Shown here in pieces: positions 61 through 30,101 of a DNA stretch of 64,000 bases (position 1 is its first letter; each line of letters begins with the position of its first letter). A program made the translations under genes and the position numbers. The notes under the pieces are model-generated. The model did no database searches. It saw nothing but the letters and a program-made list of their open reading frames with translations, and had not been told where the DNA came from. Source of the stretch: Acidimicrobiales bacterium (GTDB lineage: Bacteria; Actinomycetota; Acidimicrobiia; Acidimicrobiales; VFJN01); NCBI GenBank assembly GCA_035316325.1, contig DATHJB010000216.1:1-64000 (forward strand), read 5' to 3'.

Positions 61-665
61 CGCCGCGGCCCCTGCCCCCGCCACCGACGACCACCACGAC
101 GGTGCCGCCGCCGGTGACGACCGTTCCGCCTCCGTCGACCACGACGACCATGCCGCCACCACTGCCACTCCCGCCACCGCCGCTGCCGCTGCCGCCACCG
201 CCACCCCCGCCGGTGCAGCCGGTCCGTCTCGGCGTGGGCGCGGCGATGGCGCCGTCGCCGCTCGTCGCCGGGGAGACGGCCACCGTGGTGGTCACCGTGC
301 GGAACGACGGTGCGCAGGTCGTCGACGACGTGCGCCTCGTCGACGTGCTGTCGGCGCCCGTCGCCCTGCGCAGCGCGTCGAGCCCGGCGGGGACGTGCGC
401 GGTGGTCGGCCGGCGGGCGGACTGCCGGCTGGGTCGCCTGGCGCCCGGCGACATGGCCACGGCTGAGCTGCGGGTGGTCGTCGACCGCGAGCCCGCGTCG
501 CGCACCGTCGTCCAGCAGATCTCGCTGAACGGGGTCGACCGGTCGGTCTCGACGCTGGTCCGCAGCCCGACCCCGGCCGGCGCGCTGCTCGACCTGCCCG
601 GCCCCACCGTGACCCTGGTGGCGTTCTTCGGGTTCGTCCTCGCGAGCCGCTTCAGACCCGCATGA
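1..665 (+). CDS. 3' part of a cell-surface protein: Pro/Thr stalk, DUF11-like domain, C-terminal anchor (5' truncated)
   Basis: The reading frame is open from the first bases, so the gene starts outside the window. The first 75 codons are a Pro/Thr-rich low-complexity stalk. A domain of about 90 residues follows (nt 225-490) with the alternating beta pattern of DUF11/CARDB repeats, including the stretch VVVTVRNDGAQVVDDV and two Cys that could form a disulfide. The last 20 residues are hydrophobic (LVAFFGFVLA) and end in a short basic tail, as in a membrane anchor. The likely role is a wall- or membrane-anchored surface protein; the ligand is unknown. A GTG at 102 could be called as a start, but the same composition continues upstream of it. 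Confidence 0.75.
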   Translation, partial: PVTTTTTTAPPVTTTTTTAPPRPLPPPPTTTTTVPPPVTTVPPPSTTTTMPPPLPLPPPPLPLPPPPPPPVQPVRLGVGAAMAPSPLVAGETATVVVTVRNDGAQVVDDVRLVDVLSAPVALRSASSPAGTCAVVGRRADCRLGRLAPGDMATAELRVVVDREPASRTVVQQISLNGVDRSVSTLVRSPTPAGALLDLPGPTVTLVAFFGFVLASRFRPA

Positions 666-26583: not shown

Positions 26584-27087
26584 GTGGACATGCCAGCCCC
26601 ACAGGTCGACGCCGTGCTGCAGCACATGCGCGAGCGCGGCGGCCGGGTCACGACGGCGTTGCGGGGCGTCGTCCAGGTGCTGGCCGAGACCGAGGAGCAC
26701 CTGACGGCGGCCGACCTCGCCGACGCGGTGCAGCAGGCGCACCCGGCGATCCACGTGTCGACGATCTACCGGGCGCTCGACCGGTTGGCCGAGGCGGGCA
26801 TGGTCACCCACCTGCACGTCGGCCACGGGCCGACCGTGTACCACCTGCACGGTGACCACCACGGCCACCTGGTGTGCGGCCGCTGCGGTGCCGTGCGCGA
26901 CGTGCCCACCGCGGTGATGCAGCCGGTGACCCGGCGGGTCGCCCGCGACTACGGCTTCGCCGTCGAGCCCAGCCACCTCGCCCTGGGCGGCCTCTGCTCC
27001 GACTGCGCCGCGGCCGCGGCGTCGGCCACGTCAGCGGGCGAGCCGGTGGGCCGGCGGTCGCACCGACCCGAGGCGCCGGATCCGTAG
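26584..27087 (+). CDS. Fur family metalloregulator (Nur- or Zur-like)
   Basis: A 167-residue regulator. The winged helix spans residues 5-85 (GGRVTTALRGVVQVLAETEE, then STIYRALDRLAEAGMVTHLH). The C-terminal dimer domain carries the metal ligands HGDHHGHLVC and two CxxC pairs (CGRC and CSDC) for the structural zinc. Among Fur-like proteins the specificity (Ni, Zn or Fe) cannot be read directly. Divergence from an ECF nickel/cobalt importer argues for nickel sensing. The start is a GTG at 26584, or an ATG two codons later. Its last 57 bp overlap the convergent P1B-ATPase homologue. Confidence 0.9.
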   Translation: MDMPAPQVDAVLQHMRERGGRVTTALRGVVQVLAETEEHLTAADLADAVQQAHPAIHVSTIYRALDRLAEAGMVTHLHVGHGPTVYHLHGDHHGHLVCGRCGAVRDVPTAVMQPVTRRVARDYGFAVEPSHLALGGLCSDCAAAAASATSAGEPVGRRSHRPEAPDP

Positions 27088-28572
27088 GCCGTTCAGTCCG
27101 ACCGCGGCGGCCGACACCACGGCGAGGACGAGCGCTGGGGTGGGGCCGAGGCGGCCCAGCACGGCGAGCGGGAGGGCGGCGAGGTTCAGACCGACGGCGA
27201 GCGCCACGTTCTGCCGGGTCAGGCGGGTGACGACACGGGCCCGGCGCAGGGCGTCGACGGCGGCCCACAGGTCGGGCTCGACGAGCACGTCGGCAGGGGT
27301 GTCGCGTTCGGAGGCCGCCGTCGCGACGATGCGCCCGTCCTGGCGGAGCTGAGCGACGACCCCGGCGGTCGCTTCCGGCAGCACCAGCGGGACCACCTTC
27401 GTGACGCCCACGGCGTCGGCCATGGCGGTGGCCGCCAGACGGTCGTCGCCGCACGCCAGCACCGGCTCGATCCCGAGCGCGGTCAGCGCGGCCACGGCGT
27501 CGGCGGCGGTCGGGCGGGGCGGGTCGCCCACCACCAGCACGGCGCGCACCGCGTCGTCCCACCCGACGAGCAGGGCGATCTGCCCGGCGGTCTCGGCGGC
27601 GGTCCGGGCCGTGGCCAGGTGCTCGGGCAGCTCCCGGGCCCAGGCGGTGACGAAGCGCTCCCGGCCCGCCACCACGATCGTGCCGTCGACCACGCCCCGT
27701 ACGCCCAGGCCGGGGCGATCGACGAGGAGCTCGACCTCGGCCAGCGGCAGCCCCCGCCGCTCGGCAGCCGCCACGACGGCGTGCGCCACCGGGTGCGGGC
27801 TGCGCCGCGCCAACGACCCGACCAGCCAGAGGATGTGGTCGGGATCGGCGTCGGCGGCTAGCGCCACGTCGACGAGCCAGGGCTGTCCCGTGGTGAGCAC
27901 CCCGGTCCGGCGGAGCACCACCGTGTCGACCTGGGCCGCCAGCGCCGCCGCCTCGCCGTCGACCCGCCGGGCAAGGAGGAGGCCACTGGGACCGGCGAGC
28001 AGGAGGACGCTGGTCGCGGTGGCCGCGGCGACCGGCAGCGGTGCCCCGGCGGCCAGCCAGAACCCCGACGCCGCCGCGGCGACCAGGGTGAGGGGCACCA
28101 GCACCGACACGGCCCGCTCCTCCGGCGCCACCACCCGCCGCGGTTGCCAGCCGGCCGGCAGGCCCCGGGCGTCCCGCCGCTTCCGGACGGGCTGCGTCGG
28201 CGGGTTGGTCGCCACGGCGAGCCAGGCGAGGACGACCGAGACGGCGGTCGACCAGGGGAACGACGCCACGATGGCGAGCGAGGCGGCGAGGTCCACCGAG
28301 GGGGTTGCCCGGCGGAGGTCGTCCCAGGCCCGCCGGTGGACGGGCGCCGCGGCCCAGACGACGACCGGTGCCGCCAGGACCAGCGGCAGCCAGGCGATGC
28401 CCACCAGCGACACGGCGACCGCCGCCAACGTCAGCGCCGTGACCGCCACCAGCCGGGCCCGGGCGGCGGCCCGGTCCGCGGCGACCCACGCCTCGCCGGG
28501 GTCGGTGCGCACCTCGGCCGCGCGGCGCACCGCAGGAGCGACGACCTTCAGGGGTCGCAGGGTGGGGAGCAT
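27031..28572 (-). CDS. Degenerate P1B-type ATPase homologue lacking catalytic residues
   Basis: A 513-residue protein that aligns by order of motifs with heavy-metal P-type ATPases but has lost catalysis. The phosphorylation motif DKTGT is replaced by LRRTGVLT, where the Asp is Arg. The membrane CPC motif is replaced by GPSGLLLARR. The TGD motif is altered to CGDD, and GDGxNDAPAL to ATAASERDTPADV. The nucleotide-domain HP motif survives (RSPHPVAHAV). There is no N-terminal metal-binding domain. The frame is intact and has an AGGAGG ribosome site 24 bp after a His-rich secreted protein. A metal-binding or regulatory pseudo-transporter is likely. Confidence 0.85.
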   Translation of the reverse strand: MLPTLRPLKVVAPAVRRAAEVRTDPGEAWVAADRAAARARLVAVTALTLAAVAVSLVGIAWLPLVLAAPVVVWAAAPVHRRAWDDLRRATPSVDLAASLAIVASFPWSTAVSVVLAWLAVATNPPTQPVRKRRDARGLPAGWQPRRVVAPEERAVSVLVPLTLVAAAASGFWLAAGAPLPVAAATATSVLLLAGPSGLLLARRVDGEAAALAAQVDTVVLRRTGVLTTGQPWLVDVALAADADPDHILWLVGSLARRSPHPVAHAVVAAAERRGLPLAEVELLVDRPGLGVRGVVDGTIVVAGRERFVTAWARELPEHLATARTAAETAGQIALLVGWDDAVRAVLVVGDPPRPTAADAVAALTALGIEPVLACGDDRLAATAMADAVGVTKVVPLVLPEATAGVVAQLRQDGRIVATAASERDTPADVLVEPDLWAAVDALRRARVVTRLTRQNVALAVGLNLAALPLAVLGRLGPTPALVLAVVSAAAVGLNGLRIRRLGSVRPPAHRLAR

Positions 28573-28596
28573 CGGTTCCTCCTAGGAAGCGCGCAC

Positions 28597-29406
28597 CTAT
28601 GGAACGTGCACGGTGAAGGCGGCGGTGTGGACGGCGGCGGCGTGGGCGAAGTCGAAGAAGAGCCGGTAGTCGCCCGGGGTGGGGAGGTGGAGCATGAAGA
28701 CGCCGTCGTCCACCGGGTGGACGTGGGCGTAGGTCAGCTCGCCCGCCTCGACCGCCACCAGGTGGCCCGATGCGCCCAGGTACGGCTCCAGCTGCACGGG
28801 CGCTCCGTCGCGGGCGACGGTGAGCGTCACGGCGGTCGCCGCCCCCGCGACCGGCGTGCCGGTGAGGGTGACCGTGTAGCCGTCGACCGTCAGCGTCGGG
28901 CCGGTCTCGAACAGGGGGTTGACGACCTCCAGCTCCGAGTCGAGCGTCAGGTCCGGTCCGCCCCGGACCGCGAAGCTCGCGAAGGCCCGGTACGAGCCCG
29001 AGACGAGGGCCGGCAGGCCGACCGTCCACGTGCCGTCGGCACCGAGGGTCGGGTGGAGGTGGTGGTAGGTCGCCAGGTCGTGGGACACCACCACGAGGTG
29101 GAGGTCGCGCTCGTGCCGGGGCTCGAAGCCGAGCACCGGATGGCCGTCGGGCCCCACGATGCGGAACGCGAAGGCCTCGTCGGGCGCTCCCGTCAGCGCG
29201 GTGGTCGTCGACTCGAAGCGGTAGGCGGCCGACTCGAGCGCGTGCCGCGGCGCGTGCTCGTGCTCGGGTGGCGACGGGGGTGGCGGCGGCCGGAACGGGC
29301 CGACCTGGTGGCCCACCACGGCGCCACCGCTGAACCCGGTCGCCACCGCGACGGCACAGACCGCGAGACGCAACCCCGGCCGGTGACCGGCAAACCGTAG
29401 GTTCAT
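28597..29406 (-). CDS. Exported His-rich protein of copper-resistance loci
   Basis: A 269-residue protein with an N-terminal signal or anchor (residues 8-32) and a Pro-rich linker (FRPPPPPSPPEHEHAPRH). Two beta-rich domains follow. Metal-ligand-like clusters are ATYHHLHPTLGADG and TYAHVHPVDDG, plus SGHLVAVE and a His near the end. In actinobacteria similar proteins are found beside copper P-type ATPases and chaperones; the exact function is not established. The ATG at 29406 has GGAGGG upstream. It forms an operon with the dead P1B-ATPase homologue and is divergent from a PCuAC-type gene. Confidence 0.8.
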   Translation of the reverse strand: MNLRFAGHRPGLRLAVCAVAVATGFSGGAVVGHQVGPFRPPPPPSPPEHEHAPRHALESAAYRFESTTTALTGAPDEAFAFRIVGPDGHPVLGFEPRHERDLHLVVVSHDLATYHHLHPTLGADGTWTVGLPALVSGSYRAFASFAVRGGPDLTLDSELEVVNPLFETGPTLTVDGYTVTLTGTPVAGAATAVTLTVARDGAPVQLEPYLGASGHLVAVEAGELTYAHVHPVDDGVFMLHLPTPGDYRLFFDFAHAAAVHTAAFTVHVP

Positions 29407-29567: not shown

Positions 29568-30101
29568 ATGAGCGGGGCCCCGGGGCGCGGCCGTTCGTCC
29601 GTTCCGCTGGTCGTCCTGCTCGGGGTGGTAGCGGTCGCCATCCTCGGCGCCGGGGTGGCGCTGCTCGCGAACGGCACCGACGACGAGCCGGCCGCGGGCG
29701 ACGAGCAAGGGACCGGCAGCGACAGCGGCGGCGGCGTCGTCGTCCGCGACGCCTGGACCGCCCCCAACCAGGGCGCCACCGCGGTGTACCTCACCGTCGA
29801 CAACCCGGGCTCCGACGACCGCCTCGTCGCGGTGTCGAGCGACGTCGCCGAGTCGGCGGCGCTGATGGGCGGCGACGTCGACATGGCGCAGGAGAGCAGC
29901 GGCGACGCGGTGAGCCTGGTCGTGCCCTCGGGCGAGACCGAGCTGCGGCCCGGCGCCCCGCACCTGATGCTCCAGGGCCTCGCCGCGCCCCTGCAGCCGG
30001 GCACCACCTTCCCCCTGCGCCTCGACTTCGAGGACGCCGGCCCGATCGGGACCGCCGTCGAGGTGGTCAGCTGGGACGAAGCCGCCGACCGGGAGGGCTG
30101 A
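29568..30101 (+). CDS. PCu(A)C-type copper chaperone, membrane anchored
   Basis: A 177-residue protein. An N-terminal membrane helix (VPLVVLLGVVAVAILGAGVA) is followed by a Gly/Asp/Ser-rich linker and a PCuAC domain from about residue 55. The domain has RDAWTAPNQGATAVYLTVDN, the middle Mets (ALMGGDVDM) and the C-terminal APHLMLQGL. The family copper site is H(M)-x10-M-x21-HxM. Here the first His is missing (SAALMGG) while the later Met and HxM remain, so copper binding may be weaker or different. The family delivers copper outside the membrane. Confidence 0.85.
   Translation: MSGAPGRGRSSVPLVVLLGVVAVAILGAGVALLANGTDDEPAAGDEQGTGSDSGGGVVVRDAWTAPNQGATAVYLTVDNPGSDDRLVAVSSDVAESAALMGGDVDMAQESSGDAVSLVVPSGETELRPGAPHLMLQGLAAPLQPGTTFPLRLDFEDAGPIGTAVEVVSWDEAADREG

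Follow-up and report, generated by a model that had tools for sequence, protein, structure and literature searches.

Bacterial copper homeostasis offers two described systems with which the locus reported here can be compared. The closest is CopA, a Cu+-ATPase of the P1B-1 type. The second is CcoI/FixI, a P1B-ATPase whose gene adjoins that of the small, membrane-anchored, Ig-like protein CcoH/FixH. CcoI itself actively pumps Cu+ (PMC8475189). Outside bacteria, the guanylate cyclase beta of Plasmodium contains a degenerate P4-ATPase domain that has lost most of its signature residues and is nevertheless retained in a functional protein (PMC6592433). In the literature searched, we found no report of bacterial pseudo-P1B ATPases.

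In the following, we describe a candidate for such a protein, pATP. It is encoded in a window of 64,000 nucleotides, which is the whole stretch of DNA analysed, from an Acidimicrobiales bacterium (GenBank assembly GCA_035316325.1, contig DATHJB010000216.1, positions 1 to 64,000), and is known from this one MAG-like draft genome of 244 contigs. Its gene follows that of a secreted or membrane-anchored protein, secrW, a member of what we refer to as the secr family.

Features of the window and losses in pATP

Judged by its sequence, pATP is a P1B-ATPase homologue by descent, with a similarity far beyond chance: it matches TIGR01525 with E=4e-41, far under the curated cut-off of that family, the CopA of PDB entry 3rfu with E=8e-29, and the Pfam HAD hydrolase with E=1e-12. 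It measures 513 aa; the intact CopA of this genome, encoded on contig C15, has 755 aa. An earlier note on this DNA had described a stop-free frame of 513 codons, translated from a perfect AGGAGG 24 bp behind the secreted-protein gene, and both observations hold (Table 1). The copper-type operon in which it placed the gene is found at the paralogous C15 locus, but not in the window, which has only the two genes and a divergent PCu(A)C gene.

Table 1. Coordinates of the features discussed, in positions of the window unless residues are given
Feature	Position	Strand	Remarks
Fur-family regulator gene	26584..27087	+	convergent with pATP, divergent to cbiM
pATP, degenerate CopA-type P1B-ATPase	27031..28572	-	513 aa, ATG start
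pATP N domain and flanking P-domain parts, residues ~214-423	27304..27933	-	ungapped against intact CopA
A-domain remnant of pATP, residues 119-149	28126..28218	-	alignment and AF2 model
pATP internal deletions	near residues 59, 110-152, 169, 204-213, 424-429	-	alignment
Intergenic gap secrW/pATP, 24 bp with AGGAGG	28573..28596	-	AGGAGG 5 nt before pATP ATG
secrW, 269-aa secreted/membrane-anchored tandem Ig-like protein, weakly YtkA-like	28597..29406	-	directly upstream of pATP
PCu(A)C-type copper chaperone gene	29568..30101	+	Pfam E=3e-20; divergent from secrW

Residue losses were read from an alignment of pATP with the intact C15 CopA and 34 further P1B relatives. Those that had been proposed are confirmed: DKTGT has become RRTGV (residues 221–225), CPC has become GPS (residues 194–196), and the GDGVND loop of CopA, with the hinge and the Mg2+ site, is deleted or replaced. 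They understate the extent of the degeneration, as the HMA domain is deleted and M2 is gone together with the whole actuator (A) domain, including TGES. In the alignment, pATP matches 3 of the 61 invariant A-domain columns, and a low-confidence linker of ~30 residues, rich in Arg, Lys and Pro, stands where M2 and the actuator domain were. All copper ligands but the M5 Asn (N463) are lost, the M5 Tyr being replaced by Leu (L462) and the M6 Met and Ser by Ala (A484 and A488). Furthermore, TGD is changed to CGD, the P-domain Lys to Thr and the conserved N-domain Glu to Ala (Ala255). By contrast, the HP of the SEHP-type motif is kept at H260–P261, as had been claimed, and so is the N-domain GxG (G288, G290). 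The fold order, likewise said to be kept, is maintained for the remaining helices and the P and N domains, but not for the deleted A domain, M2 and HMA domain. From these losses it is clear that pATP is without catalysis, unable to run the E1/E2 cycle, to pump or to carry copper.

Three roles had been suggested for such a protein, namely a metal sensor, a scaffold for the secreted protein and a passive channel. A copper sensor or a passive copper channel would suit a gene whose neighbours encode a secreted protein of the metal-binding type and a PCuAC chaperone; yet CPC has turned into GPS, the HMA domain is deleted, and of the M5 and M6 ligands the Tyr, Met and Ser are gone and the M5 Asn alone is kept, so that we consider both very unlikely. 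A scaffold is the best of the three.

The AF2 model of pATP has a mean pLDDT of 79.7, reaching 93–98 across most of residues 210–420, which comprise the P and N domains; the alignment behind it included intact homologues, so that it is biased toward the intact fold. Its P/N part resembles 2b8e, the ATP-binding domain of Archaeoglobus CopA, with a target TM-score of 0.86, while a low-confidence stub at residues 116–146 takes the place of the A domain. As M2 is absent, the number of helices before this stub is odd; the strongly positive charge of the stub suggests that it may still face the cytoplasm.

Proteins of the secr type carry two H...HxHP-type motifs, and all six family-conserved His residues are present in secrW (H103, H116, H118, H215, H228 and H230). 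A fold search with secrW returned generic tandem Ig-like folds only; ubiquitin, which appeared among the PDB profile matches, was dismissed as spurious, since no stretch passes alone. We searched upstream of secrW for promoter and terminator patterns and found none; the genome has a single CsoR gene, a member of the C15 operon, and no CsoR operator emerged here, for which reasons the idea of a shared regulator was rejected. At the other loci examined, no PCu(A)C chaperone gene was found beside secr. On the opposite side, the 3' end of the Fur-family gene overlaps the final 57 bp of the pATP coding sequence. Its product, a possible Ni/Co regulator of the adjoining cbiM-PDGLE-cbiQ-ATPase genes, more likely belongs to these Co/Ni (cbi) genes.

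The intact paralogue and the origin of the locus

On contig C15, the genome carries the gene order copZ, a secr paralogue, copA, csoR and copB, in which copA has all motifs; the order has about 20 more loci at which an intact copA likewise comes directly after secr. In the ATPase tree, pATP is the sister of C15 CopA (bootstrap 81), and secrW groups with the C15 secr. Because both trees pair the window copy with the C15 copy, a duplication of the secr-copA two-gene unit in this lineage is the most likely origin of the locus. The branch of pATP is very long (4.43 compared with 0.08 for C15 CopA, i.e. ~50-fold faster), so that its placement calls for caution, although the concordance of the two genes speaks for it. 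The branches of the secr pair measure 0.66 (secrW) and 0.37 (C15 secr).

The earlier note had regarded intact DKTGT pumps beside the same neighbours as evidence against its reading, and such pumps are what we find at C15 and at the ~20 related loci. Since they follow the same secr protein both in this genome and in these relatives, pATP is, as far as the sequences tell, a single-lineage degenerate duplicate and no conserved class. Accordingly, the notion that all relatives beside the secreted-protein gene might share its losses was not borne out: no pATP-like losses were found among 397 genomes of the order, 395 of the class and 396 of the phylum, sets that partly overlap. A search of genome contigs with pATP peptide words had a 27%-identical planctomycete protein, no orthologue, as its sole match, and a search of plasmids gave no match covering 80% of pATP.

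Among the related loci, one in genome G239 (L080, 3192–6266) has a secr-type protein in frame behind an intact CopB, with an extra TM between them and 1,025 residues in all. It is apparently a CopB-secr fusion, in which an internal start is possible. Genome G203 contains a second secr-copA copy (L082, G203:C172, 3888–6415), whose copA is split across two frames near residue 187 by a frameshift or a sequencing error; its other copy (L081) is intact. In G232, copA and secr pieces lie in several frames (L103, G232:C85, 2674–5878) and are likely pseudogenes or poor sequence. Lastly, in a second copper cassette of G210 (L101, G210:C1:3847000-3861000), an intact copA is preceded by separate genes to which the two halves of secr correspond.

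Constraint and decay in pATP

Given the intact CopA in the same genome, pATP could be the decaying relic of a redundant copA duplicate, with a frame that is open by chance at high G+C. The open frame itself cannot serve as proof of selection: zero stops occurred in 8–60% of the runs of a neutral simulation (P = 0.08–0.6, not significant), and an ORF of 741 aa overlaps pATP in another frame. With a G+C content so high and neutral runs so often stop-free, missing stops are uninformative. Further points in favour of decay are the extreme branch length of pATP, its raised GC1 (0.84) and GC2 (0.57), which exceed those of every intact homologue as relaxed constraint predicts, the frameshift-split extra cassette copy of G203, from which it appears that spare copies may decay, and the single draft genome, with no orthologue found to attest long-term retention. 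Also to be set against retention are the odd helix count left by the loss of M2 and the replacement of the conserved N-domain Glu by Ala255.

Several other findings are at odds with simple decay. The internal deletions of pATP, of which at least five are separate and well anchored, are all multiples of three. In codon branch models with the pATP branch as foreground, omega=1 was rejected in every block (2dlnL 39 for N/P2, 24.5 for TM, 10.4 for N and 31.8 for P), and thus we do not find the dN/dS near 1 that had been named as the mark of a decaying gene; saturation at synonymous sites, with fitted branch lengths of 12–20, makes omega a whole-branch average here, with which recent decay after constraint is still compatible. 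In the membrane and N blocks, it lies above background. The membrane segments keep their hydrophobicity beyond the neutral simulation (MA/MB/M1 and M3/M4, p<=0.013; M5/M6, p<=0.027), an excess that persists when the simulation is begun from other functional relatives, and replacements in MA–M1 and M3–M4 are more conservative than neutral.

Finally, the N domain is nearly normal. Together with the flanking P parts, it is 52% identical to that of the C15 paralogue over 209 codons; for the N domain, the identity between the two is 0.55, compared with a mean of 0.65 and a minimum of 0.53 among working pumps. Differences amount to 4.35 times the normal in M5–M6 and to 2.9 times in M3–M4, and retention differs between N and TM parts (p=0.015). 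As the best-preserved part of the protein, with HP and GxG in place, the N domain might bind ATP/ADP and make pATP a nucleotide-responsive regulator, which would tune the intact CopA, for example through pATP/CopA hetero-oligomers, or signal the energy state to the copper system. We find this regulator, including the route through hetero-oligomers, improbable in view of Ala255, the CGD and a heterogeneity that is only moderate across all six domains (chi-square p=0.07).

Weighing these observations, we consider pATP more likely retained than a relic, the latter being unlikely, if with a real share of the probability.

A possible non-pumping partner and its known counterparts

That pATP is retained as a non-pumping protein appears probable from its sequence. 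Somewhat probable, too, is a history in which secr and copA were duplicated and the ATPase copy was then kept as a non-pumping membrane protein. The two-gene unit would have been copied out of a copZ-secr-copA-csoR-copB operon. The secr copy has held its conserved His residues, while the ATPase copy has lost the HMA domain, M2, the actuator domain, the phosphorylated Asp, the Mg2+ loop and every copper ligand except one, staying in frame through all indels and keeping its hydrophobic membrane segments and a well-conserved N domain. Its product may still be made and sit in the membrane, the P and N domains facing the cytoplasm, and could serve as a non-pumping anchor or scaffold for the adjacent secreted metal-binding protein and perhaps still bind nucleotide weakly.

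We prefer an anchor or scaffold role mainly because the CopB-secr frame of G239, in which a secr-type protein continues from CopB, makes a physical partnership between secr proteins and P1B pumps plausible; secr proteins are probably able to function when tethered to a pump of this kind. That pATP is the membrane scaffold or anchor of secrW specifically is a more tentative proposal, and that it represents an actuator-less pseudo-P-type ATPase with a stable scaffold role for an extracytoplasmic metal-binding protein, possibly nucleotide-sensing via its N domain, is doubtful. If retained, pATP would show a bacterial P-type ATPase that has become a pseudo-transporter, in a genome that also has the working paralogue with the same partner gene; the two would form a clean pair with which to study the part played by the N and P domains and by the secreted partner when no pumping takes place. 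If decaying, it would be an ordinary duplicate relic. Likewise, secrW points to an uncharacterised family of secreted tandem Ig-like, His-motif proteins that is tightly linked to CopA in the order.

Compared with the known systems, CopA (PDB 3rfu, 4bbj, 7r0g, and the C15 paralogue) is homologous across most of the length of pATP; MA, MB, M1, M3–M6 and the P and N domains follow one another in both, and C15 copA likewise has a secr gene directly upstream. Unlike CopA, pATP is devoid of the HMA domain, M2, the A domain with its TGES, the phosphorylated Asp, GDGVND, CPC, the M5 Tyr and the M6 Met and Ser. The CcoI/FixI and CcoH/FixH pair resembles the locus in that a P1B-ATPase gene lies beside that of an Ig-like protein; this is a weak lead. 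One secr family member matches FixH, very weakly (E=0.064). CcoI pumps, whereas pATP is dead. Conceptually, the known relatives of pATP are pseudoenzymes at large and the Plasmodium guanylate cyclase with its degenerate P4-ATPase domain, although this domain is eukaryotic, of the P4 type and fused to a cyclase, while pATP is a stand-alone bacterial P1B protein.
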